Made by a program: the position numbers and the translations under genes. Positions 1-13,514 of a stretch of DNA of 64,000 bases are shown piece after piece; within the stretch, counting starts at the first letter, position 1; the number at the start of each line of letters is the position of its first letter. The DNA comes from Tindallia sp. MSAO_Bac2 (lineage in GTDB: Bacteria > Bacillota > Clostridia > Peptostreptococcales > Tindalliaceae): NCBI GenBank assembly GCA_003838145.1, contig QYZZ01000043.1, forward strand, positions 1 to 64,000, written 5' to 3'. The notes beneath the pieces were generated by a model, which searched no databases, was not told where the DNA came from, and saw only the letters and a list, made by a program, of their open reading frames with translations.

Positions 1-94
1 CCTCATCATATTCGAAAATTGTTTGTCCGCTGTTGCCTCTTATCATAACATGATAAATGCCAGTTCGGCTACGTTTACGCATTTGTCTCGCCAA
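1..94 (-). CDS. REP-associated tyrosine transposase (RAYT), 5' fragment cut by window edge
   Basis: The first ~31 codons of a gene that leaves the window at base 1. A TTG at 94-92, preceded by AAGGAG at 105-110, gives a protein beginning MARQMRKRSRTGIYHVMIRG and continuing through GQTIFEYDE. The TGIYHVMIRGN segment is typical of the N-terminus of IS200/IS605-type Y1 transposases of the REP-associated group. Such enzymes are single-domain HUH nucleases that mobilise short palindromic REP sequences. The HUH motif and catalytic tyrosine lie outside the window, so activity cannot be judged. An ATG at 82 is an alternative start but lacks a well-placed ribosome-binding site. REP-like palindromes occur at 238, 7900, 10937 and 13404, which fits this assignment. 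Confidence 0.75.
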   Translation of the reverse strand, partial: MARQMRKRSRTGIYHVMIRGNSGQTIFEYDE

Positions 95-177
95 TGGTGG
101 TCAGCTCCTTGGATGCAAATTATTGTGACAGTAATATAAGTATTCGACATTGATTTTATTATTCCTTTTATGTGCAT

Positions 178-208
178 AAAAAAGAGCCAACCGAATTCTG
201 ATTGACTC
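178..208 (-). terminator. Rho-independent terminator 3' of the O-antigen ligase-like gene
   Basis: On the minus strand an 8-bp stem (GAGTCAAT with GTTGGCTC, two G-U pairs) is followed by TTTTTT. It lies about 120 bp past the stop of the 328-2292 gene and upstream of the transposase fragment. A close copy of the hairpin and T-tract sits at 2423-2451, so the O-antigen ligase-like gene is bracketed by two related terminators. Confidence 0.6.
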
Positions 209-237
209 CAAATTTAACAAAGACAGCTAAGGGTAAA

Positions 238-302
238 GGCACATGTGGGACACGAGGTGATTTACTCCGTTGTTTTCGGGGTTAATCAGCTCGCATCATC
301 CA
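238..302. repeat. Decayed REP-like element (family of 10937-11002)
   Basis: Read on the plus strand, GGCACATGTGGGACACGAGG and the following bases align with the minus strand of the intact element at 10937-11002 (GGCACAGTGGGGACGTGAGG...). The blocks GAGGT, CTCC, TTT-GGGG and AGCTC stay in the same order. The outer stem is largely lost. It lies next to the 5' end of a REP-type transposase gene. Confidence 0.5.
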
Positions 303-327
303 GCTCACAAGATTTCTCCTTCTGTGA

Positions 328-2292
328 TCATTTTTCTTCACCATTCGCGAAAGCTTTTTTCAAGTATTCATTTTCTAATTTTTTATGTTTACTTACTAAC
401 TCCTCATTTCCGTCTTCTTCATATATCCGTGCGAGACGATTGTGCAGTAAGGCTGCTTCAATAATGGTGATTGGCTTGCGATCATCCGGTGAACGTCTGA
501 TAGCATATTCCGTTAACTCAGCTGCCTTAAGCAACACCTCTTCTGAATCTTCCAATTCTCCATGATTATAATAAAATCTGGCTAGATCCAGTTGCCTTGA
601 AAGAGTATAAGCACTTAATTCAGAAGCTTTCTTTAAGTACTTTTCTGCTAGTTCAAGTTCGTTTTTTTCTAGATATATTTTTCCAAGATGGTTTAGAACA
701 GCAGCGTCATAAGGGGCAAGATTTGCTGCTCTCTGGGCAGATATCTTTGCATTTTTTAACGTATTAGCAGAATTATTTTCACTGTACTGAGCAAAATATA
801 ATTGACTTTCAATTAAATGTCCCTGGCTGTTAAAAGGAAAATAAGTGTTCGCAAAATCATAATAAGTAAGAGCTTTTTCTTGATACTCAGCCTGTTCATA
901 TTCAAGCCCCTTTTTAAGTATCTCAAAGGAACTGTACAACCAGAAAGTCAGGAGGATTACAATTAACAGCCCAGTAACTATAGTCTTGTATGAAATCCTA
1001 ATTATATTACCTTTATAAGAATTGTCGTTGTCATCAAAATGCGATTGTTCTCCATATTTTTCAGTAGATTCCTGCCCTTGTGGTTCTCTAACCAGCACAC
1101 CTAATATAGCAAAAAACAGCAAAGTAACTGCAGGGAAATTCCAGCTGAAGTCAACGAAAATATGCATCAGAAAAGCCAAGCTCCCTGCCAGTACAGCAGG
1201 TATATAAAAAACATACTGTTTGCTTCTGATTTTGTGGAATACTTTACTAAAGCAGCTAACCATAAAAACAGTAAATAATGAGAACCCAATAATTCCAGTT
1301 TCAACAATTATTTGAAGGTAATGATTATGGACAAACCTAGAATACCATTGATTGCCACCATATTCCAAATAATACGAAGCAAAATAAGTACCTAATCCAA
1401 AACCTTGAAATGGATGGTATCCAATTAGATTTATAGCTACATTCCAAAACTCCAAACGTCCGACCACAGACGTAGGTACCAGTGAATCAAATCTTGTCAT
1501 GCTGTCAAATAATGATCTACCAATTAAGTTTTCCTGTATTAAAGGCGTTATATATGTAATCCCAGTGGCAAACAGTAAAGATGCTGCAATGCATATAAAA
1601 GAATGAAACAAGTCACCTGGGAGCTGTTTCCAACTCCTTCCAATATAAATAAAAGGCGATGCTAAAATGAAAGCAAGATATGATGCTCTTGATCCTGTTA
1701 AGATAAATGCAACCGCAATGATACAACCTACAAAAAACAACTGTTTATTACGCTTGTGAACGTAAAGACCCAGTACTACCAGAAAAAGCATAGCGAGATA
1801 AATTCCCAAGGGGTTTGGGTTTGTAAAGGTACTTTGTATTCTTCTTCCTGCCACAAAAATGTATTCCAGTATACCGAATAAAGCGATTCCTGTTCCGGTG
1901 ATCAAGACGATACGTGATACGCGAAACAATTCATCTTCCTTAATCATCTTAATCAACCAAAAGACGATCGCGAAAGAAATAAGCAACAGCAATTCAATTA
2001 TTGACCTAACCGAGTGAACGGTCCAAATAATACTTAAAGCAGTCCAAGCAAGAAATGCCAACAAATACAAATCATTTCCTGGAATAGACATCCTAAAGGT
2101 GCTTTTATCCTGTAAAAAATAACCTATAAGAAGAACACCTGTTATCATTAGTAGCCAATATATGATGTCGTGGTCAAAACCTGCATCAAATAATGGTGTG
2201 ATTCCAAGCCAGATGAAGAGTGCAGTGGCAGGTTTCATCAATTGACGAACTATGTTTTCTTCATGACTTCGTTCTAAACGAAATGCACCCAT
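328..2292 (-). CDS. O-antigen ligase/polymerase (Wzy_C) family membrane protein with C-terminal TPR-like domain
   Basis: A 654-residue integral membrane protein. The start is ATG at 2292, with GGAGGT placed correctly; the reading frame is open 35 codons further but lacks such a site. About a dozen hydrophobic segments fill the first ~440 residues. A large loop carries the Wzy_C-type stretch around FVHNHYLQIIVETGIIG, as in O-antigen ligases and pilin O-oligosaccharyltransferases. After a last membrane segment (TGLLIVILLTFWLYS), the final ~200 residues are helical repeats resembling TPR (LNHLGKIYLEKNELELAEKY). The family transfers or joins lipid-linked glycans outside the membrane. The gene follows the pilin gene, separated by a terminator, so a role in pilin glycosylation is possible but is inference. 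A TATAAT at 2308-2313 with a poor -35 may be its promoter. Confidence 0.75.
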   Translation of the reverse strand: MGAFRLERSHEENIVRQLMKPATALFIWLGITPLFDAGFDHDIIYWLLMITGVLLIGYFLQDKSTFRMSIPGNDLYLLAFLAWTALSIIWTVHSVRSIIELLLLISFAIVFWLIKMIKEDELFRVSRIVLITGTGIALFGILEYIFVAGRRIQSTFTNPNPLGIYLAMLFLVVLGLYVHKRNKQLFFVGCIIAVAFILTGSRASYLAFILASPFIYIGRSWKQLPGDLFHSFICIAASLLFATGITYITPLIQENLIGRSLFDSMTRFDSLVPTSVVGRLEFWNVAINLIGYHPFQGFGLGTYFASYYLEYGGNQWYSRFVHNHYLQIIVETGIIGFSLFTVFMVSCFSKVFHKIRSKQYVFYIPAVLAGSLAFLMHIFVDFSWNFPAVTLLFFAILGVLVREPQGQESTEKYGEQSHFDDNDNSYKGNIIRISYKTIVTGLLIVILLTFWLYSSFEILKKGLEYEQAEYQEKALTYYDFANTYFPFNSQGHLIESQLYFAQYSENNSANTLKNAKISAQRAANLAPYDAAVLNHLGKIYLEKNELELAEKYLKKASELSAYTLSRQLDLARFYYNHGELEDSEEVLLKAAELTEYAIRRSPDDRKPITIIEAALLHNRLARIYEEDGNEELVSKHKKLENEYLKKAFANGEEK

Positions 2293-2422
2293 GATGACCT
2301 CCATCAAATTATAGATTCGAAGTATAGATAACTTAATTGCGCTTAGCATTGATATAGATGAAAATATAGCGTTACTTACTCTCTTATTCGACATCATTTA
2401 CTAATTACCTTTAATATACATG

Positions 2423-2451
2423 AAAAAAGAGCCAATCAAATTGACTGACTC
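2423..2451 (-). terminator. Rho-independent terminator downstream of the pilin gene
   Basis: On the minus strand GAGTCAGTCA pairs with TGATTGGCTC (10 bp, two G-U pairs, three-base loop) and is followed by TTTTTT. It would end the pilus operon transcript before the O-antigen ligase-like gene. It is closely similar to the hairpin at 178-208. Confidence 0.7.
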
Positions 2452-2625
2452 TTAAATCGAAAACAAATTTTGTTCACATTTTGCAAAAAGTACGAGTTGC
2501 CTTCGTCCCGCGCCTTCCAAAGATCCAGCCCGGAGGCTGACTCCTGTGGTAGTGCTGTGTGGTAGGGAAAAGGTTACATTACCTCCGTCCCGGTCTCGGT
2601 TTGTCATGTATCTTCATGGCCTGGT
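2452..2625. other. GC-rich, fold-prone segment 3' of the pilin gene, unidentified
   Basis: Part of the 333-bp gap 2293-2625. This stretch is far more GC-rich than its flanks and holds several short inverted repeats, for example CAGCC/GGCTG around CGGA and GGAG/CTCC. On the minus strand it contains ACAAACCGAGACCGGGACG, which recalls the first half of c-di-GMP-I aptamers, but the rest of that motif is missing. No open reading frame or promoter is convincing. The remainder of the gap holds the terminator at 2423 and the leader of the 328-2292 gene. Confidence 0.35.
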
Positions 2626-2979
2626 CTACTCATTTACTACGTCTATTGACCAACCATTATCAGCATCATACGTTAATGAGTATTCAGTATTTCCACTATT
2701 GCTTTGAACATTAAAATTATTACCACTAACATTTGTAACATTCTCTACATAATCGCCAGGCCACGTTCCACTAGAATCATCAGCCTGATAAATTGTCCAT
2801 GCGCTTTGTACGGTTCTAAGTGTTGCATCCTTTGCTGCATCTTCTGCCCTGCTGGTAAAGCCTAGTAATCTTGGTACTGCTATAACTGCCAAAATCCCCA
2901 AAATCGCAATAACCACAATCAGTTCAATCAACGTGAAGCCTTTTCTGTTTTTCATCCTTTTAGCAAAAAATTGTATCAT
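2626..2979 (-). CDS. Type IV pilin / pseudopilin
   Basis: A 117-residue prepilin. ATG at 2979 follows GGAGG by 8 bases. The leader MIQFFAKRMKNRKG ends in Gly14, then FTLIELIVVIAILGILAVIA: the class III signal with prepilin-peptidase cleavage after Gly and Glu at +5. The hydrophobic helix (~15-37) is followed by a short, Asn/Ser/Asp-rich globular domain that lacks cysteines. It is probably the major pilin of the pilB-pilT-pilC system upstream. It is separated from pilC by a 196-bp purine-rich spacer containing the hairpin CACCC-TTGA-GGGTG, so its mRNA may be processed or separately promoted; no promoter is obvious. A terminator follows at 2423. No prepilin peptidase is in the window. Confidence 0.92.
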   Translation of the reverse strand: MIQFFAKRMKNRKGFTLIELIVVIAILGILAVIAVPRLLGFTSRAEDAAKDATLRTVQSAWTIYQADDSSGTWPGDYVENVTNVSGNNFNVQSNSGNTEYSLTYDADNGWSIDVVNE

Positions 2980-3175
2980 TCCCAATTCCTCCTTTTTCCT
3001 TTTCTTTATTTTTAAATTGCTTTCAGCTACCCCCTGTTACTTATAACCTGTCACCTTTCACCTGCTCTTATGTCCTCTCTCTCCTGCCTTACTCTTTTGA
3101 CTTCCAATTCTTAACTCATAACTTTTAACTCTTAACACCCTCAAGGGTGCAGGCTGCTTTTCCTACCTGCCTTTC

Positions 3176-4378
3176 CTACACTGTCTGCAACACATCAAAC
3201 ATCGGAAGCACCATACTGATAACTATAAACCCAATCACTACCCCCATGATGACAATCAGCATAGGTTCTACAAAGGTCAACATTCGCTGGATCTCGGTTT
3301 CCACCTCCTCATCAAAGAAGTTGGCAGTTTTGTCCAGAATTTCATCTAACGTTCCGGACTCTTCGCCGATTTTAATCATGTTATCCACCATAGGCGGGAA
3401 AAAACCCAGCTTTCTGATGGGGGTGGATAACGCTACACCCTTGCGGATGTCTTCCCGGGTGGAGAGGATTCCATCTGCCACCACGGTATTGCCAACGGCT
3501 CCCGCTACACTCTCCAATGATTGTAATAGGGGAATACCGCTAACCAACAAAGTTGAGAGGGTACGCGTGAAACGGGCACTAACAATCTTTCTGGTCAGTC
3601 CTTTTACCAGCGGCAATCTCAGTTTCCAACGGTCAATGGTTCTTTGTCCATCCGGTGTTGCGGCCAATCTTCTGAATCCTAACATTACTAATAAGATGAT
3701 ACTCAAAAATACAAACCAGAAATCTCTAAGGGCGGCACTGATGGTAAGTAAAATAACGGTAGGTATTGGTAGGGGAACGCCGCTTCCTTCAAACATGCTT
3801 AGAAAAGTTGGCATTACAACTGTTAACAAGAAAATGACTACTGCGACGGCTACAATGCTAAGGATAATAGGATATACCATGGCACTTTTTATTTTATTAT
3901 TTATCTTATGCTCTTTTTCGTAGTGATCCGCCAGCCGGTTCATGACTGTATCCATAGTACCACTGGCCTCACCAGCTTCCACCATGTAAATCATCAGCTG
4001 AGGAAACACGTGTGGATGCTTTTCCAGAGCCTCGGAAAATGTATAGCCTTTTTGAACGTCTTCATATAACTCGTGAATTATTATTTTCAGCTTTTTATGA
4101 TCCACCTGCTGACTTAAAATATCCAGAGTGTTAACAATAGTTACACCGGCGTTTTGCATGGTGTAAAACTGTCGGCAGAAAACGGCAATATGCTTGATAC
4201 TGATTTTACCAAAGAGTTGGATATCCCGAATATCTTTTTCCACCACTTCTTCCACAGCAGTAGGATAGTACTGTTTTTCCCTCAGCCTCTGCAGTATTTC
4301 TATTTTTGAGTTGGCGGTTTCGGTTCCTTCCAGGTTTTCACCGGAGGCAGAAACTGCCTTATACTTGTAGAGCGGCAT
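3176..4378 (-). CDS. pilC: Type IV pilus inner-membrane platform protein PilC (GspF family)
   Basis: 400 residues, the usual length. It begins MPLYKYKAVSASGENLEG, typical of GspF/PilC. Two T2SSF helical domains (about 68-190 and 270-393) each precede a hydrophobic segment (VYPIILSIVAVAVVIFLLTV near 170; the C-terminal LIVIMGVVIGFIVISMV). Both contain the MIKIGEESG/MVEAGEASG signature characteristic of the family. The protein anchors the assembly and retraction ATPases PilB and PilT at the cytoplasmic membrane. It lies 14 bp after pilT, in the pilB-pilT-pilC-pilin operon. RBS AAAGGGGG precedes the ATG. Confidence 0.93.
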   Translation of the reverse strand: MPLYKYKAVSASGENLEGTETANSKIEILQRLREKQYYPTAVEEVVEKDIRDIQLFGKISIKHIAVFCRQFYTMQNAGVTIVNTLDILSQQVDHKKLKIIIHELYEDVQKGYTFSEALEKHPHVFPQLMIYMVEAGEASGTMDTVMNRLADHYEKEHKINNKIKSAMVYPIILSIVAVAVVIFLLTVVMPTFLSMFEGSGVPLPIPTVILLTISAALRDFWFVFLSIILLVMLGFRRLAATPDGQRTIDRWKLRLPLVKGLTRKIVSARFTRTLSTLLVSGIPLLQSLESVAGAVGNTVVADGILSTREDIRKGVALSTPIRKLGFFPPMVDNMIKIGEESGTLDEILDKTANFFDEEVETEIQRMLTFVEPMLIVIMGVVIGFIVISMVLPMFDVLQTV

Positions 4379-4392
4379 AAAGGTCCCCCTTT

Positions 4393-5454
4393 CTAAAGCA
4401 TGCTTCCCAGTTGTCTGCGGACGTAATCAATGTCCTGAGCGTAGGTCATGGTAGTTTCTCTGGAAATATGACCTTCTTTCAACAGCTTCAGAAGGGCATT
4501 GTCCATGGTAACCATACCGAACTTGGCTCCGGTCTGAACGGAGGTCTGAATCTGGTGGGTTTTGCCTTCTCTGATCAGGTTTCGAATGGCGTTAGTGGCT
4601 ATCATAACCTCAAAGGCCGCTACCCTTCCTTTATCTGATTTTTTAGCCATCAGCTGCTGGGAGATAATACCCTCCATAACGGAAGCCAGCTGTACTTTAA
4701 TCTGTTCCTGCTGATAGGGGGGGAAAACGTCGATGATCCTATCCACGGTATTGGCAGCACCCAGGGTATGAAGTGTACTGAGAACCAGGTGGCCGGTTTC
4801 GGCTGCGGTTATAGCAATGGCAATGGTTTCCAGGTCTCGCATCTCTCCCACCAGAATAACATCCGGGTCCTGTCGGAGACAGGCCCTGAGACCATTTGCA
4901 AAGGTCTGGGTATCTTCTCCCACTTCCCGCTGGTTGATGACACTGCGGTTATGCCTGTGCAGATACTCGATAGGATCTTCCAGTGTAATGATATGACAGT
5001 TTCTTTCCTGATTGATCAGTTCGATCATGGATGCCAGAGTCGTTGATTTACCGGAGCCGGTGGGACCGGTAACAAGGATCAGGCCTCTTTGCTTCCGGGT
5101 CAGCTCGGCTACGGTGGGAGGCAGTCCCAGTTCTTCCAGGCTCGGAATTCGTGAGTAAACTACCCGGAAGGCCATACCATAGCTTCCCCGCTGCCGATAG
5201 GCATTTACACGGAAACGACCCATCCCGGGGTGGGAAAAGGAAATATCGATTTCGCCTTTTTCCAGCAGCACATTCAACTGTCTTTCCGTCAGCACCTGTT
5301 TAACCATGGCTGCTGTATCTTCCGGCATCAGGGCTTTGTCGTTGAGTTTTTCCAGGCTTCCATCCACCCGGATAATTGGTGGCAGACTTACGGTAACGTG
5401 TAAATCGGAGGCTCTTGCATTAACCGCTTGTTTTAGATATTCCAAAACATCCAT
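4393..5454 (-). CDS. pilT: Twitching motility ATPase PilT
   Basis: 353 residues. It begins MDVLEYLKQAVNARASDLHV, the PilT N-terminal PAS-like region with the ASDLH motif. The RecA-like domain has Walker A GPTGSGKSTT near residue 130, the Asp box around LEDPIEYLH, Walker B VILVGEMRDLETI near 200, and the His box TGHLVLSTLHT. PilT hexamers depolymerise pilin and retract the pilus. It sits 10 bp after pilB and 14 bp before pilC. A retraction ATPase implies dynamic pili for twitching or DNA uptake, not just a secretion pseudopilus. Confidence 0.95.
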   Translation of the reverse strand: MDVLEYLKQAVNARASDLHVTVSLPPIIRVDGSLEKLNDKALMPEDTAAMVKQVLTERQLNVLLEKGEIDISFSHPGMGRFRVNAYRQRGSYGMAFRVVYSRIPSLEELGLPPTVAELTRKQRGLILVTGPTGSGKSTTLASMIELINQERNCHIITLEDPIEYLHRHNRSVINQREVGEDTQTFANGLRACLRQDPDVILVGEMRDLETIAIAITAAETGHLVLSTLHTLGAANTVDRIIDVFPPYQQEQIKVQLASVMEGIISQQLMAKKSDKGRVAAFEVMIATNAIRNLIREGKTHQIQTSVQTGAKFGMVTMDNALLKLLKEGHISRETTMTYAQDIDYVRRQLGSML

Positions 5455-5464
5455 ATTTTCCCTC

Positions 5465-7147
5465 CTAATCCAGTGAGTAGGTCATTTTGATTAATTCATC
5501 AACGGTGGTGACTCCCTTTAAAACCAAATGCCGGCAACTTTGACGAAGGGTAATCATGCCATGTTCCATGGCCTCTTTTTTAATGTACTCGTTGCCTTTT
5601 TGCTGATCGATGGCATTCTTGATACTGTCATACATAGGCAGTATTTCATGAATGGCAGTACGGCCTTTGTAACCGGTACGGTTGCAGGCATTGCAGCCGG
5701 TTCCGTGATAGATGGTTTCGCCGTCTTCCAGTCCCAGCAGCTTTTTCTCCTTGAAGTTTGGTTCATAAGGCGATTTGCAGTTTTCACATATTTTCTTTAC
5801 CAGCCGTTGTGCCATGATACCCACCACGGAGCTGGAGATCAGATATGGCTCGATTCCCATGTCCATAAGACGGGAAATGGTGGCTACCGTATCATTGGTG
5901 TGGAGGGTACTAAGCACCATGTGACCGGTAATGGCGGCCCGAACAGCTATCTGCGCCGTTTCCATATCCCGGATCTCACCGATCATGATGATGTCCGGAT
6001 CCTGTCGGAGGATGGAACGGAGTCCGCTGGCAAAGGTAAGACCCGCCTTTGTATTAACCTGTGACTGGTTGATCCCGTTGATGCGATACTCTACCGGATC
6101 CTCTACAGTTATGATATTACTATGGGTTTGGTTAAGCTCCTGCAGCACTGCATATAATGTGGTGGTTTTTCCAGAGCCGGTAGGTCCGGTTACCAGAATG
6201 ATTCCGTGGGGATGCTTTATAATCTGATCAAAAGTGGCCATATTTTCATCACTGAAGCCCAGTTCATGTTTGCTTAAAAGGACACTGCTTCTGTCCAAAA
6301 GTCGTATAACCACTTTCTCACCGTAAACCGTCGGCATGACGGCAATTCGCATATCAATATCCCTGCCGTCGATTTCCATTTCCACACGACCATCCTGGGG
6401 TACCCTTTTTTCGGCTATGTCCATTTTACCCATGATTTTTATACGGGTTACCACTGCACTGTGACTGGATTTTTGCGGTCGCATAATTTCCTGTAAATCG
6501 CCGTCAAGGCGGAAACGTACTCTTAATTCTCTTTCCAGGGGTTCGATGTGAATGTCGCTGGCCTTCATTTTGATGGCCTGTTTGATGACAGAGTTTAGCA
6601 ATTTGACTACTGGTGCGTTTTCCACGTTAGCCAGGTTAACTTCATCAAAATCATCAAAAATATCGGTTTCATAATTTTCGTCAAATTCTTCCAGTGCTTT
6701 TTCGGCACTTTCCTTTTCGTAATAGATGCCGATGGCATTAAGGATTTCTTCTTTGGTGGAAATTACGGGTTCTACTTTTAAGCCGGTGGCTATTTTTACA
6801 TCGTCCACTGCAAATATATTCAGTGGGTCCGCCATTGCCACCATCAGGACATCATCTTCCTGTTTGATGGGAATCAGTATATGACGACGAGCCAGCTTTT
6901 CTGAAATGATCCTTGGAATTTCCGGTGGTATATAGATTTTTTCCAGATCCATATGGGGAATACCCAGCTGAAACTCCAGGACTTCGGTAATTTGCTTATC
7001 ATCAATAATGCCCTGATCCACCAATACTTCCCCGATTTTTTTGTTGGTGTTTTTCTGTTTTTCCAGTGCGTCACGAAGTTGGTCCTGTGTAATAACACCA
7101 ACTTCCACTAAAAGGTCTCCCAGTCGTCTGTTCTTTGGTGTCTTCAT
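5465..7147 (-). CDS. pilB: Type IV pilus assembly ATPase PilB (GspE family)
   Basis: 560 residues. The ATG at 7147 (MKTPKNRRLGDLL) is preferred over an ATG two codons upstream because GGAGG is then 7 bases away. The N-terminal MshEN/T2SSE-N domain spans about 5-150. The C-terminal ATPase has Walker A GPTGSGKTTT near 325, Asp box EDPVEYRI, Walker B IIMIGEIRDMETA and His box TGHMVLSTLHTND. A CENC...CNAC tetracysteine motif near 455-490 marks the zinc site of assembly ATPases. It powers pilin polymerisation. First gene of the pilus operon, behind a ~130-nt structured leader. Confidence 0.95.
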   Translation of the reverse strand: MKTPKNRRLGDLLVEVGVITQDQLRDALEKQKNTNKKIGEVLVDQGIIDDKQITEVLEFQLGIPHMDLEKIYIPPEIPRIISEKLARRHILIPIKQEDDVLMVAMADPLNIFAVDDVKIATGLKVEPVISTKEEILNAIGIYYEKESAEKALEEFDENYETDIFDDFDEVNLANVENAPVVKLLNSVIKQAIKMKASDIHIEPLERELRVRFRLDGDLQEIMRPQKSSHSAVVTRIKIMGKMDIAEKRVPQDGRVEMEIDGRDIDMRIAVMPTVYGEKVVIRLLDRSSVLLSKHELGFSDENMATFDQIIKHPHGIILVTGPTGSGKTTTLYAVLQELNQTHSNIITVEDPVEYRINGINQSQVNTKAGLTFASGLRSILRQDPDIIMIGEIRDMETAQIAVRAAITGHMVLSTLHTNDTVATISRLMDMGIEPYLISSSVVGIMAQRLVKKICENCKSPYEPNFKEKKLLGLEDGETIYHGTGCNACNRTGYKGRTAIHEILPMYDSIKNAIDQQKGNEYIKKEAMEHGMITLRQSCRHLVLKGVTTVDELIKMTYSLD

Positions 7148-7163
7148 AGTCATTCCTCCGGAG

Positions 7164-7202
7164 ATATAAAATAAACCGACGAATAATTAAATTCTGCCGG
7201 TT
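7164..7202 (-). promoter_or_regulatory. Terminator-like hairpin in the pilB leader (candidate attenuator)
   Basis: On the minus strand AACCGGC...GTCGGTT forms an interrupted stem extended by GAAT/ATTC-like pairs, followed by TATTTTATAT, just upstream of the pilB ribosome-binding site. An intrinsic terminator between a promoter and the first gene of an operon is the usual expression platform of a riboswitch or attenuator. The T-tract is interrupted, so termination efficiency is uncertain. Confidence 0.45.
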
Positions 7203-7275
7203 ACGCCACTGGATCCCCACAGCTTAAGCGTCCATCTATAGCTGCAGTTCCTTTCCGCTGTTTTGGTTTTTTTCT
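7203..7275 (-). promoter_or_regulatory. Structured 5' leader of the pilus operon, possible riboswitch aptamer
   Basis: About 70 nt between the pilB promoter and the attenuator-like hairpin. On the minus strand it holds AGCGGAAAGG, the paired CAGCT/AGCTG, GGACGCTTAAGC and GTGGCGTAACCGGC; the last overlaps the 5' arm of the terminator hairpin, as expected for a switch. Type IV pilus genes in clostridia are often under c-di-GMP riboswitches. GGACGC...AAGC recalls c-di-GMP-I and GCGGAAA recalls c-di-GMP-II, but neither consensus is complete. Confidence 0.3.
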
Positions 7276-7282
7276 TAGTTCT

Positions 7283-7310
7283 ATTATACCAATTTTTCAT
7301 TTTTAGTAAA
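7283..7310 (-). promoter_or_regulatory. Sigma-70-type promoter of pilB operon
   Basis: Minus strand TTTACT (7305-7310), 16-bp spacer, TATAAT (7283-7288). It predicts a leader of roughly 130 nt before the pilB start at 7147. Confidence 0.7.
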
Positions 7311-7350
7311 CGGAAAAATTCAAAGTATTTCGCAAACTTTTGAGTGTTCT

Positions 7351-7845
7351 TCACCTGAACTTCTTTAAACGGCTTAATATCCGCTTTTCAGCACGACGAA
7401 CAATGGTGGTCCACCAAAATTCTTTGCTTTTGATGGGGGTTACCAGAATAGTGTAAAGGCCGATCCGGTTTCCGCCCAGTACATCGGTAAAAATCTGATC
7501 TCCAATAATAGCTGTTTCGTGTGGTTTATGCCTCATGATTCGGAGGGCTTTTTTCAGACCGTAACCGGTGGGTTTTTTTGCCCTTGCCAGACCCCGGCAA
7601 TGAAAAAAAGCCTGCATGCGCTGCACCCGTTCAGGCTTATTGTTGGAAACCAGCATGATATTGAAACCTTCCTCCTTGGCTTCTTTCATCCATTGGATGG
7701 ACTCGCTGGAGGGCTGGGGAGAATCCCAGGCCACCAGGGTGTTGTCAATATCGATAATGAGTGCTTTGATGCCGACGGTTTTTAGTTCTTTGATTGGGAT
7801 ATGGGAAAGCTGGTCCACCCATATTCTTGGTTTTAACAGGTTCAT
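7351..7845 (-). CDS. YqeG family HAD-type phosphatase
   Basis: 164 residues starting at ATG 7845 (MNLLKPRIWVDQL), which has GAGGTG 5 bases away; an ORF extension of eight codons lacks an RBS. HAD motif I is IIDIDNTLVAWD near residue 35, motif II is the Ser of MLVSNNKPER near 70, and motif III/IV is PTGYGLKKALRIM plus AIIGDQIFTDVLGGNR near 110-125. The family (YqeG, IIIA subfamily) is common next to ribosome-assembly or shikimate genes in Firmicutes; its substrate is not settled. It stands alone between the pilus promoter and a REP cluster. Confidence 0.85.
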   Translation of the reverse strand: MNLLKPRIWVDQLSHIPIKELKTVGIKALIIDIDNTLVAWDSPQPSSESIQWMKEAKEEGFNIMLVSNNKPERVQRMQAFFHCRGLARAKKPTGYGLKKALRIMRHKPHETAIIGDQIFTDVLGGNRIGLYTILVTPIKSKEFWWTTIVRRAEKRILSRLKKFR

Positions 7846-7899
7846 TTTAACACCTCGTAGTTTTTTCACTTTATAATCTAAATCACCTTCGGAGTAGGC

Positions 7900-7963
7900 G
7901 CAGTGGGGACGGAGCTAATTTGCCCCGATAGACCTGGAGCAAATTACCTGCCGTCCCCACTGC
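7900..7963. repeat. REP-like nested inverted repeat
   Basis: The outer arms GCAGTGGGGACGG and CCGTCCCCACTGC are perfectly complementary over 13 bp. Inside them TAATTTGC pairs with GCAAATTA, leaving a short loop. The whole can fold into one long cruciform or hairpin. The same arms occur at 10937-11002 and, shortened, at 13404-13432. This is the best-preserved copy of the family in the window. Confidence 0.85.
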
Positions 7964-8064
7964 ACCTCTGGAGCAAGTTTCCAGCCGTCCCCATTGCACC
8001 TTCCTGAGTTTCTTGCAGTCCCTCTGCATTTCTGGTACGAATTACCTGCTGTCACCATTATGCC
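7931..8064. repeat. Array of four degenerate REP half-units overlapping the TrhP stop codon
   Basis: Four successive units of 28-36 bp share the pattern CTGGAGCAA-TT-CC-GCCGTCCCCA-TGCACC. They lie at 7931-7966, 7967-8000, 8001-8028 and 8029-8064, with increasing divergence. The fourth unit contains the last seven codons (including stop) of the gene at 8042-9286, so the peptidase-family protein ends in residues encoded by the repeat. The pattern suggests partial duplication or template switching at a REP element. Confidence 0.65.
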
Positions 8065-9286
8065 TTACTTTACGCAGAATCTCTTTGGGGTAGAGGGGAA
8101 AGGGTACTTTACAGGTAACGATTTGCTGAGGATGGGGTGCGTTGTCGATGGGTTCTCCGTCATCGTTTTTCAGATCTGTAATAGTTAAGTGCAGGGCCTT
8201 TTCCCGGTCCGGGCCAATCAGCTCTACCTGATCCTTATCGTAAAAGCGGTTCCGCTGCTGGATGGTAGCGATTTGTGTTTCCGGATTCCAGTGTTCCACC
8301 AGACCGATAAAGTCATAGCTGCGGGCTCCATAGGTTTCGTCGTAAATCTGGTCTTCTTCGGAGGGCTTGTTGAAGTAAAAACCAGTAGTGAAGGGGCGGT
8401 GACTGGCTTTTTGGAGTTCTTCCAACCATTCCGGCTTAAACTCCCAGTTGTCCGGGTCTTTCAGGTATGCATCCAGAGCCTGCCGATATACCCGAACCAC
8501 CGTTGCCACATAATAGATAGTTTTCATCCGGCCCTCTATTTTCAGGCTGGTGAGGCCGGCTTCAATAAGCTGTGGGAGGTGTTTGATCATGCACAGATCC
8601 TTGGAATGAAAGATATAGGTGCCAGTTTCGTCTTCGTACACCGGCATGTATTCGCCGGGTCGCTGTTCTTCCACAATGGAGTAGCGCCAACGGCAGGGGT
8701 GGGCACAGCCTCCCCGGTTGGCATCCCGGCCAATCATGTAGTTGCTCAGCAGGCAGCGTCCTGAATAGGAGATGCACATGGCGCCGTGGATAAATCCTTC
8801 CAGCTCCAAATCTTTGGGTTTTTCATTGTGCATTTCTTTTATTTCCTTCAGGCTAAGTTCCCTTGCCATGACCACCCGTGCGGCTCCCAGCCGGTACCAG
8901 AAATTGATGGTATGGATGTTGGTGCTGTTGGCCTGAGTGCTTATGTGGATGGGAAACTGAGGCGCATATTGCTGTACCAGATCAAAGGTTCCCGGATCGG
9001 ATACAATAACACCATCCAAAGGGATGTGTTGAATAGACTCCAGGTAATCCTTCAGACCCTTCATATCTTCATTATGGGGCACAATATTAAGGGTCAGATA
9101 CACACTGGCATTGTGCTGGTGGGCAAAAGCCACACCTTCTGCCATTTCTTCCAGGGAAAAATTTTTGGCGGCAGCTCTTAAACCAAAAACCTGGCCGCCG
9201 ATATAAACGGCATCGGCGCCGTAAAGGATTGCTATTTTCAACCGTTCCAGATCTCCGGCAGGGGCTAATAGTTCTATGTTATTCAT
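8042..9286 (-). CDS. trhP: U32 family protein, tRNA 5-hydroxyuridine synthesis TrhP-like
   Basis: 414 residues. It begins MNNIELLAPAGDLERLKIAI, the conserved U32 N-terminus. The signature EGFIHGAMCISYSGRC (near 160-175) plus further cysteines (GGCAHPCRW near 195) provides an iron-sulfur ligand set. U32 members TrhP/RlhA hydroxylate RNA pyrimidines using prephenate; the adjacent methyltransferase gene (4-bp overlap) points to the tRNA U34 pathway rather than proteolysis. In Bacillus the order yrrM-yrrN-yrrO is similar. The C-terminal residues (about HNGDSR) are encoded by a REP half-unit. An older annotation would be 'collagenase-like protease'. Confidence 0.85.
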   Translation of the reverse strand: MNNIELLAPAGDLERLKIAILYGADAVYIGGQVFGLRAAAKNFSLEEMAEGVAFAHQHNASVYLTLNIVPHNEDMKGLKDYLESIQHIPLDGVIVSDPGTFDLVQQYAPQFPIHISTQANSTNIHTINFWYRLGAARVVMARELSLKEIKEMHNEKPKDLELEGFIHGAMCISYSGRCLLSNYMIGRDANRGGCAHPCRWRYSIVEEQRPGEYMPVYEDETGTYIFHSKDLCMIKHLPQLIEAGLTSLKIEGRMKTIYYVATVVRVYRQALDAYLKDPDNWEFKPEWLEELQKASHRPFTTGFYFNKPSEEDQIYDETYGARSYDFIGLVEHWNPETQIATIQQRNRFYDKDQVELIGPDREKALHLTITDLKNDDGEPIDNAPHPQQIVTCKVPFPLYPKEILRKVRHNGDSR

Positions 9287-9978
9287 TCTGTTTCCTCCTG
9301 AGTTTTCATACTGATGGCCAGACCGTCACCAACAGGAAGGATACTGGTTTCCAGCTGTGGATGGCTGGTGATGGTTTCCAGGTATTGACGCATACGGGTA
9401 ACAATGGTTTTTTTCCGTCTTCTGACCAGATCATCGCTGGCAACCATTCCCCGAAACAAAATATTATCGGAAATAAGAAGGCCGCCGGGATTTAACAGCT
9501 GGACGCTTTTATCCAGCATTTCTCCGTAATGGCCCTTTGCTCCGTCAAGAAAGATCATATCGAAGGGTTCTTCCAGGCATGGTAGTACCTCCAGAGCATC
9601 ACCATGAATGATTTTAATGTTGTCCTGAAGGCCGGCTTTTTCTATGTTTTTCATCGCTTCTTCTGTGTAGTTGGGATCCCTTTCGATGGTAGTGATCCGT
9701 GCTTTTTTTCCAGCGGCAGTTGCAAACAGAATGGCTGAATAGCCAAAGGCAGTTCCCACCTCCAGGATGGTTCTGGTGCCGGACATTTTAATAATGTTTT
9801 TCAGCAGGGCTGACACTTCCGGCTCAATAATGGGGATATGCCTTTCTTCAGCTTCTTCTTTCAGCTGCTGAAGTATTCCTTTATCCGGCGGCAGCAACTG
9901 GCGGATGTAGTCCTCCACGTACTCCCGGGTAATGGTTCCTGTCGGATCAATGATTCCTTTTATTGGTTTTTTTAGCAT
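9283..9978 (-). CDS. trmR: tRNA 5-hydroxyuridine methyltransferase TrmR (O-methyltransferase, YrrM)
   Basis: 231 residues, class I SAM-dependent O-methyltransferase of the caffeoyl-CoA type. Motif I is TILEVGTAFGYSAILFA near 70, the acidic residue is in ITTIERDPN, and metal-binding candidates are FLDGAKGHYGEM and ISDNILFRG near 145-175. In Bacillus subtilis the orthologue methylates 5-hydroxyuridine at tRNA position 34 to give mo5U, helping wobble decoding. The stop overlaps the trhP start (ATGA), so hydroxylase and methylase are translationally coupled. LysO genes lie directly upstream (6-bp gap). Confidence 0.87.
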   Translation of the reverse strand: MLKKPIKGIIDPTGTITREYVEDYIRQLLPPDKGILQQLKEEAEERHIPIIEPEVSALLKNIIKMSGTRTILEVGTAFGYSAILFATAAGKKARITTIERDPNYTEEAMKNIEKAGLQDNIKIIHGDALEVLPCLEEPFDMIFLDGAKGHYGEMLDKSVQLLNPGGLLISDNILFRGMVASDDLVRRRKKTIVTRMRQYLETITSHPQLETSILPVGDGLAISMKTQEETE

Positions 9979-9984
9979 AGGGCA

Positions 9985-10581
9985 TCATCCAAACGTCATT
10001 AGTAGCGGTACCAGTACCGGCACCATGGAAGATAATACAACTCCGGTGATAAAGGCTATAACGGCGATATTACCGTCGGTGGATTTGGAGATAACCGGTA
10101 ATGTGACGTCCATGGTGGTGGCACCACCGGGGGCTACGCTCTCCAGTTTTCCGATGTATCGGGCTACGACCGGGATTAGCATCAGGGCCATCACTTCCCT
10201 GGATATATTGGTAATAAAGGCCAGGGTTCCCAGTTGAGCGCTGTATTTGCTCAGCTCGATGGCAGAGAGGGAATACCAGCCAAAACCGGCACCGACTGCT
10301 CCCGCCTGGTTCCAGGGGAGGGATAGCAAAGTGCCTCCTATAATGGTGCCGACAATGCTGCCAACAGCAACCATAATGGGAACGAATAGTATTTTAAAGC
10401 CCATGGATTTCAGTTTTTTAAAGAGGTCTCCCTGGTTTCCTATGTCAATGCCGACAAAAAACAAAAGGATGCAGAGTCCGATATTTATGATGGTTCCCAT
10501 ATAGGGAACGATGGATTGAGGAATAATGAAAAAGCCACTGGCAATGCCCAGGGCTACAGTTGCTAAAATAGCGAGGGTCAT
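9985..10581 (-). CDS. LysO family transporter, C-terminal part
   Basis: 198 residues with about six hydrophobic segments, starting MTLAILATVALGIASGFFII behind AAGGAG. It corresponds to the larger C-terminal part of LysO/YbjE (DUF340), a lysine exporter of about 300 residues in Escherichia coli; the segments GAGFGWYSLSAIELSK and FITNISREVMAL are family hallmarks. The N-terminal portion is a separate gene immediately upstream (20-bp gap). Two-gene LysO systems are known in Firmicutes, so this is probably functional rather than a frameshift. The substrate in this organism (lysine or another cationic amino acid) is not proven. Confidence 0.8.
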   Translation of the reverse strand: MTLAILATVALGIASGFFIIPQSIVPYMGTIINIGLCILLFFVGIDIGNQGDLFKKLKSMGFKILFVPIMVAVGSIVGTIIGGTLLSLPWNQAGAVGAGFGWYSLSAIELSKYSAQLGTLAFITNISREVMALMLIPVVARYIGKLESVAPGGATTMDVTLPVISKSTDGNIAVIAFITGVVLSSMVPVLVPLLMTFG

Positions 10582-10601
10582 GGAATCTTTCTCCTTTCGG
10601 C

Positions 10602-10880
10602 TTATTTTTGCTTAATGATCCGTGAAGATACCAGCTTCACACCGATCACACTGAATACAATGGAAAAAGCTGCCAGCACAATTGCCTGGAATCCAATGGT
10701 GCCGAAGGTATAAATAACTTCCTGGTCCAGGCCGATGTTTACACCCATGATAAAGAGCAGCAGCAAAAGTGAAAGGTTTTGCAGGGTATCCAGCCGGTTC
10801 ATTACCGCTGGTTTAAAAAGCCTTCTGTAACCTAAAAATCCGCCTATGGCGAGGATGATTACGTAGAGTAAGATATCCAT
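10602..10880 (-). CDS. LysO family transporter, N-terminal part
   Basis: 92 residues from ATG 10880 (MDILLYVIILAIGGFLGYRR), with AGGAGG eight bases upstream. The frame is open further into the REP element, but that extension is hydrophilic junk. Three membrane segments are visible, including LSLLLLLFIMGVNIGLDQEV, which parallels LLFFVGIDIGNQGDL in the second gene and shows the internal repeat of the family. The two proteins likely assemble into one transporter. The REP copy at 10937 lies 57 bp upstream, separating it from RNase J. Confidence 0.78.
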   Translation of the reverse strand: MDILLYVIILAIGGFLGYRRLFKPAVMNRLDTLQNLSLLLLLFIMGVNIGLDQEVIYTFGTIGFQAIVLAAFSIVFSVIGVKLVSSRIIKQK

Positions 10881-10936
10881 GGTGTGTACCTCCTGTAAAG
10901 AATATGTAAGGGGTGGGGTCAGGGATAGGGGAAGGT

Positions 10937-11002
10937 CACAGTGGGGACGGAGCTCTCGTGCCCCAAAGTTCGTGGAGCACAAGACCTCACGTCCCCACTG
11001 TG
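10937..11002. repeat. REP-like nested inverted repeat
   Basis: Arms CACAGTGGGGACG and CGTCCCCACTGTG are perfectly complementary over 13 bp; inner arms TCTCGTGC and GCACAAGA pair with one mismatch. Same architecture as 7900-7963, with different inner sequence. It sits 16 bp from the RNase J stop codon and could also act as a 3' stabiliser or terminator of that mRNA. Confidence 0.85.
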
Positions 11003-11018
11003 CCGACTTGATGCTTTG

Positions 11019-13403: not shown

Positions 13404-13432
13404 GGCACTGTGGGGACGTCCCCTCATGTGCC
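13404..13432. repeat. Short REP-like palindrome
   Basis: GGCAC and GTGCC flank the 12-bp palindrome GGGGACGTCCCC (13412-13423). It looks like a deletion derivative of the elements at 7900 and 10937 in which the two outer arms are joined. Confidence 0.65.
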
Positions 13433-13514
13433 TTTTCAACTGCAGAATTATTCACCCTCTCCCTAACCCTCTCCCGTCGGAGGGAGAGGGGATTAAAGAG
13501 CTTTTTCAACTGCA
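13433..13514. repeat. Palindrome flanked by direct repeats
   Basis: The 9-bp arms CCCTCTCCC and GGGAGAGGG (13467-13490) form a palindrome unrelated in sequence to the GTGGGGACG family. The 12-mer TTTTCAACTGCA occurs at 13433-13444 and again at 13503-13514, on either side. The arrangement may be the footprint of an inserted palindromic element or a second REP type. Confidence 0.55.

Follow-up and report, generated by a model that had tools for sequence, protein, structure and literature searches.

Transposases of the IS200/IS605 family act on single-stranded hairpins at both ends of their elements. Among the REP-associated tyrosine transposases (RAYTs), those accompanied by abundant repetitive extragenic palindromes (REPs) were found only in gammaproteobacteria in one survey (Nunvar 2010, PMC2817692), and RAYT-like genes with GGGGWSAS inverted repeats, together with moderately abundant families of such terminal inverted repeats (TIRs), have been described as TIRYTs and TIRtrons (Di Nocera et al. 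2013, PMC3733652). Most of the genes in the latter study were assigned to subclass 2.1 of the TnpA-Y1 proteins, which also holds 291 of the 292 sequences of RAYT group 1 (Quentin et al. 2018, PMC6006769). The window analysed here (64,000 nucleotides of Tindallia sp. MSAO_Bac2, assembly GCA_003838145.1, contig QYZZ01000043.1, positions 1 to 64,000 of the forward strand) begins with the start of a RAYT gene and carries several members of a family of nested 70-bp palindromes. With a probability of roughly 0.6, we read these palindromes as a low-copy, miniature and non-autonomous family, resembling REP doublets forming hairpins (REPINs) or miniature inverted-repeat transposable elements (MITEs), that would be mobile and would derive from the terminal hairpins of a TIR-flanked RAYT.

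The elements are of the TIRYT kind, and TIR-flanked RAYTs have been described since 2013. As in TIRtrons, a Y1 transposase is flanked by inverted repeats, and solo and dimeric TIR copies occur in the genome (PMC3733652); Y1 transposases with GGGGWSAS-like inverted repeats were found in bulk at the RAYT loci compared below. The published TIRs are described as long, and some as partly or wholly self-complementary, whereas those described here are hairpins with covarying, variable stems and a tag in the loop; position 7 of the motif is A in the TIRYT consensus and mostly G here, and the text of PMC3733652 was found to make no mention of Clostridia or Firmicutes. Subclass 2.1 shares with the present proteins the HuH motif, the Y---NP motif and a long C-terminus with similarity to helix-turn-helix (HTH) domains; however, automatic and manual searches gave no REP-like sequences near its genes (PMC6006769), whereas hairpins were found here. 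In the GTAG-type REP/REPIN systems, palindromes likewise flank the RAYT and disperse as inverted dimers, but a GTAG/GTGG foot lies 5' of the hairpin (PMC2817692; Bertels and Rainey 2011, PMC3116915), whereas here the tag lies in the loop; such systems also usually exceed 100 copies per genome, against about ten here. Directly 5' of the stem-loop, a GT(A/G)G foot was present at one of 87 RAYT-flanking hairpins and was noted at none of the 70-bp copies, and a GTAG-type reading was rejected on the missing foot and the low copy number. Thus, of the RAYT with a multi-form REP set proposed by the initial annotation, the RAYT and the palindrome family stand, but the proteobacterial type of pairing gives way to a TIR-flanked RAYT. 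IS200/IS605 elements (IS608, ISDra2) share the HuH-tyrosine transposase, but their hairpins are subterminal, in the same orientation and without terminal inverted repeats, whereas the two hairpins here are mostly inverted. No description of the variable-stem, loop-tag design, or of its co-evolution with the protein, was found in the open-licence full texts searched, and priority is uncertain.

The features of the window that bear on this comparison are given below, where G000 denotes the window's own genome (C34 being the window's contig), G001 to G003 belong to the same genus and G006 to a sister genus.

2 to 94, minus strand: first 31 codons of a RAYT, a Y1-type HuH transposase; it starts with TTG at 94 and runs off the contig edge at codon 31
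177 to 209, minus strand: terminator-like palindrome GAGTCAATCAGAATTCGGTTGGCTCTTTTTT, separating the RAYT from the decayed element; similar copies occur near C34:2385 and on C97
238 to 306, minus strand: decayed form of the 70-bp palindrome, lying about 145 bp upstream of the RAYT start; its orthologue in G003 is likewise upstream of the RAYT
2519 to 2594, minus strand: following the pilin gene, a terminator-like hairpin and a tag unit GGGACGGAGGTAATGTAACCTTTTCCC (about 2564 to 2591), the latter identical to the units of the array around the G006 RAYT
7897 to 7966, plus strand: intact 70-bp nested palindrome of two inverted GTGGGGACG...CCCC halves (sequence, folding, covariance model)
7970 to 8001, plus strand: tandem half-copy (right half) GGAGCAAGTTTCCAGCCGTCCCCATTGCACC (sequence)
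8032 to 8064, plus strand: second half-copy, more decayed (sequence)
10935 to 11004, plus strand: intact 70-bp nested palindrome with a different inner stem; orthologue in G001, absent in G002 and G003
13404 to 13432, plus strand: minimal palindrome GGCACTGTGGGGACGTCCCCTCATGTGCC, an internal deletion of the 70-bp form; minimal orthologue in G001

All four palindromes that the initial annotation had placed at 238, 7900, 10937 and 13404 (one decayed, two intact and one minimal) were recovered, and its remark that inner stems vary while outer arms are kept was borne out by alignment. The half-copies at 7970 to 8001 and 8032 to 8064 and the GGGACGGAGGTAATGTAACCTTTTCCC unit are additions to that annotation. 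Across 16 aligned copies, 89% of cells are paired and both sides have changed at six pairs, one inner pair being seen as C-G, A-T, G-C and G-T; the covariation score (0.128, against 0.065 for shuffled alignments) was reached by none of 500 shuffles and lies above every slid version. The inner stem of the 70-bp family therefore changes with compensation. When folded as single-stranded DNA, the intact copies have z scores of -4.5 to -7.8, and none of 200 shuffles was equally stable. The family consensus is GTCACAGTGGGGACGGAGCTCATTTGCCCCGAAAAnCATGGAGCAAATGACCTCACGTCCCCACAGTGCC; each palindrome carries GTGGGGACGGAGCT, that is, the extended tag TGGGGACGGAGG, and the tags lie 49 bp apart and convergent. 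The dispersed 70-bp elements are two hairpin units placed head to head and lacking the gene that would stand between them. In a comparison with Rfam, the palindromes were covered by no known RNA family.

With a covariance model built on eight of them, ten full copies were found in the own genome (E 6e-20 to 1.5e-14; contigs C23, C34, C59 and C116), so that the arms are by no means confined to the loci first noticed, a prospect that the initial annotation had raised against itself. The same model gives two to four matches in each of G001 to G003 and none in three sister-genus genomes; related but different palindromes occur within the same order in G011, G012, G022, G030 and G058. The 11-mer TGGGGACGGAG occurs 11 times in the own genome, against none for its reversed control, whereas the 9-mer arm GTGGGGACG shows no clear genome-wide enrichment (19 against 14 for the reversed control) and is therefore a poor probe on its own. 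The copies appear, from their sequences, to turn over between species: the 13404 site holds, in G002 and G003, a full palindrome whose outer arms are GAGGACGGAG and whose inner stem is unrelated, and the half-copy at C23:86349 of the own genome, which is split by another repeat, corresponds to a full copy in G002. As a separate observation, half-copies of the 70-bp element at about 13450 to 13500 of the window and at G000 C23:86380, C116:15575 and C116:24678 are joined to, or interrupted by, a further palindromic repeat, CCCTCACCCTAACCCTCTCCCGCCAGGGGAGAGGGG.

The minus strand from 94 to 2 translates as LARQMRKRSRTGIYHVMIRGNSGQTIFEYDE, the start of a RAYT, and is 94% identical over 31 amino acids to the RAYT of the sister species G003; the gene fragment starting at 94 was thus correctly called. 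Only 31 codons are present because contig C34 begins at base 1 of the window, and a search across the own, 97%-complete assembly found nothing of the remainder. The G003 gene is orthologous, lies in a syntenic type IV pilus locus and has one in-frame TGA; the G002 orthologue is intact and occupies the same locus as the window's; and the G006 gene lies downstream of the same pil genes and is broken after codon 31 by GGATTAATGGGGACGGAGGTAATGTAACCTTTTCCC. The point at which the window's RAYT ends at the contig edge is the break codon of the interrupted G006 gene (FEHDE|). The shared end point (window 1 to 2; locus L115, G006:C10, about 410 to 430) may be a coincidence or reflect a common insertion hot spot. 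Several RAYTs are present per genome in this genus. Three Y1 matches were considered as further copies of the window RAYT and rejected: those on C6 and C117 belong to different RAYTs, each tagged in its own way, and that at C106:5-73 is the start of an IS200-type TnpA. Near that TnpA start (L022, G000 C106) a perfect-looking palindrome, CATAGTAAACCAGAGGGAC-TGTCCCTCTGGTTTACTATG, was noted at about 285 to 335, and a similar CCAGAGGGAC...GTCCCTCTGG sequence recurs at about 1255 to 1280.

No protein model matched the 31-codon piece alone, and the identity of the protein was approached through its orthologue and relatives. The G002 orthologue matches Y1_Tnp (53 bits) and scores 58.6 bits against NF047646 (REP_Tyr_transpos), under the cut-off of 80, which two relatives exceed; no close relatives of it were found among the contigs of named genomes that were searched. 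All 34 named relatives match Y1_Tnp and, at E <= 0.001, NF047646 (the first at 75 bits); HxH and Y-IHQNP are invariant in relatives, and the class-2 motif Y---NP is thus present. HTH_23 is found at the C-terminus in 9 of the 34 and further members match other HTH models; no HTH model matched the G002 orthologue. A PDB search by sequence gave no match. The predicted model of one relative (pLDDT 92) has four helices at residues 193 to 241, and its closest fold in the PDB is that of the E. coli RAYT in complex with a REP hairpin (4er8, E 1.9e-8), followed by the TnpA proteins of ISDra2 and IS608. By comparison with published descriptions, the protein is a RAYT of the TIR-flanked kind (TIRYT), putatively of RAYT group 1, subclass 2.1.

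What ties the palindromes to this gene is, above all, the tag. In G003 a 70-bp palindrome lies directly upstream of the orthologous RAYT, and the syntenic pil locus with its upstream palindrome in both the window and G003 therefore represents one ancestral arrangement. Units with the extended tag TGGGGACGGAGG stand around the orthologous RAYT in each of G002, G003 and G006. In G002, GATGGGGACGGAGGCAACTCGTCC lies upstream and GATAGAGGACGGAGGCAACCCGTAC right after the stop, with both tags in direct orientation; the downstream side of the window's own RAYT is beyond the contig edge, and the G002 orthologue is tagged on both sides. In G006 the RAYT is followed by an array of GGATTAATGGGGACGGAGGTAATGTAACCTTTTCCC units with a 96-bp period, nine of the genome's 11 tags are no more than 1 kb from the gene, one of them interrupting it, and the RAYT stub thus sits within an array of GGGGACGGAGG units. 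A unit of 85 bp that combines the tag with a terminator-like hairpin occurs three times in the G003 pilus locus (L054, about 4022-4106, 4311-4395 and 6111-6185) and once in the window (2519-2594). Palindrome-bearing relatives with near-complete genomes do have RAYTs, only the 63%-complete G058 showing none, so that the annotation's other reservation, that such relatives might lack them, does not apply. On these sequences, the palindrome family and the RAYT appear to belong together beyond chance.

The same design holds at Firmicute RAYT loci in general. In a first set, of 43 RAYTs from 60 relatives of the order, 32 have GGGAC(G/A) on the gene strand in the 300 bp upstream (4.0 expected), and 24 have it on the opposite strand in the 200 bp downstream (2.8 expected). 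A second set took the best 80 of 558 named loci (Clostridia, Bacilli, Negativicutes, Prevotella, and metagenome-assembled genomes of Atribacteria and Coriobacteriales) and leans to Firmicutes because the query does; there the motif was present upstream on the gene strand in 68 of 77 (11.6 expected; binomial P 4e-46, ignoring kinship of loci) and downstream on the opposite strand in 65 of 78 (8.4 expected; binomial P 4e-50, with kinship likewise ignored). Eight IS200-type TnpA genes taken as a comparison showed no tag except one distant hit. The tag lies in a hairpin loop, mostly of 11 to 15 nt, in 87 of 122 cases with a stem of at least 5 bp, and the conserved positions are a closing CA, a G before GGGAC, GGGAC itself, GGTTCT and a closing TG. 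A stem of at least 6 bp is present in 52-54% of hairpins, a share that falls to 7-8% once arms are re-paired across loci; identity between the 5' arms of a gene's two hairpins is 72%, compared with 37% for arms from different genes. Tag classes, which include GGGACGGTTC, GGGACAGGT and GGGACGTTTC, change 14 times on the RAYT tree, against 35.8 times with shuffled labels (minimum 33), and at 60-70% protein identity the tag stands at 0.89 and the stem at 0.55, the stem arms diverging faster. The two hairpins of a gene are mostly inverted, being direct at G002 and at one other locus (L058); among dispersed GGGGACGGTTC pairs in G001, G032 and G055, all ten close pairs are convergent, as the two ends of a RAYT gene would be if the gene itself were lost.

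The general rule from these approximately 120 loci is a hairpin upstream of the RAYT and an inverted partner just after its stop. The stem is gene-specific and covaries, whereas GGGGAC(G/A)G is conserved in the loop, and RAYT phylogeny is tracked by the 3' part of this tag. The largest group of TIR-flanked RAYTs thus probably uses a distinct form of REP, with a freely covarying, gene-specific stem and a protein-read GGGGACGG loop tag whose 3' half co-evolves with the RAYT, and inverted pairs of such hairpins would form low-copy, REPIN-like elements such as those of the window. Three solo stem-tag-stem hairpins, AGGACGAGT-GGGGACGGGGTCA-ACTCGTCCT, were also seen in the own genome (L010/L012; C47:1184, 1234 and 5395), on a contig without a Y1_Tnp match.

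Several observations weigh against derivation of the palindromes from this RAYT, or against their mobility. No clean empty site or target duplication was seen at 7897, 10935, 13404 or C23:80074, where the flanks are too diverged, and relatives without a copy differ across the whole intergenic stretch; the copies do differ in presence between species. The copy number is low (about ten full copies). The stem of the half-element is imperfect, with little kept beyond the closing CA/TG and GG/CC pairs, and therefore the long dyad, rather than the half-hairpin, is what folds; the right half, moreover, has GGGGACGTGAGG or GGGGACGGCAGG in place of GGGGACGGAG. The RAYT-adjacent palindromes of the window and G003 count as one ancestral event, not two, and G001 has palindrome copies but no orthologue of this RAYT. 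The last two points, the plurality of RAYTs in each genome of the genus, and the difference between the stems of the 70-bp family and those of the G002 and G006 RAYT hairpins would all suit mobilisation by a different RAYT with a similar tag, the window's gene being a mere neighbour. We consider this possible, if distinctly the less probable account, since the extended tag GGGACGGAGG was found beside members of this RAYT clade in three genomes, whereas almost every other RAYT examined in the genus has a different tag (for example GGGACGGTTC, GGGACGTTTC or GGGACGGTAC). It is on this shared extended tag that the 70-bp family is tentatively assigned to this RAYT and not to another of the genus.

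The palindromes might, alternatively, not move at all, but act as hairpins in transcription or mRNA (terminators or processing sites) that gene conversion has amplified or selection maintains. Each of the twelve copies checked lies either between genes or in the start region of an open frame, several of the 70-bp copies lie between co-directional genes, the hairpins are stable, and some stand beside terminator-like palindromes. Yet no T run follows the 70-bp copies, their presence varies between sister species, half-copies and tandem arrays occur, and the tag and dimer architecture match the ends of RAYT genes, which makes an immobile role improbable. Still less credible is an origin as MITEs of a DDE transposase (for example of IS630 or IS4 type) with terminal inverted repeats GGCAC...GTGCC: the elements are indeed short, palindromic, intergenic, TIR-ended and of low copy number, but no target duplication is visible in the copies read, and the conserved part is an internal tag common to RAYT-flanking hairpins rather than the ends; on these two grounds it was rejected.

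If the palindromes do derive from the terminal hairpins of a TIR-flanked RAYT, the HuH/tyrosine protein would bind the folded single strand in a strand-specific manner via the loop tag, and its tyrosine would cut and rejoin next to the hairpin, as E. coli TnpA-REP and IS608 TnpA do on theirs (PMC8266576). A pair of ends could then be moved or copied, with or without the gene between them. In this genus the system may be dying or dormant, because only the G002 copy of the RAYT is intact: those of the window and G006 are truncated, and that of G003 carries an in-frame stop.

Elsewhere in the window, a probable c-di-GMP-II riboswitch lies upstream of the type IV pilus operon (7186 to 7267, minus strand; RF01786, 43.4 bits, under the gathering score of 53.5, E 1e-6), and a similar stretch is present in G003 (L054, 7466-7540).

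Recognition of REP hairpins has been worked out for GTAG-type RAYTs only, and the DNA partner of subclass 2.1, the most widespread RAYT group, is left open in the literature covered. The intact G002 gene with its two tags offers a single-gene test case. If the present account is true, the loop tag, which keeps to the protein tree as the stem drifts, would be a cheap and direct prediction of what these RAYTs read, and would allow RAYTs and their elements to be matched in any genome.

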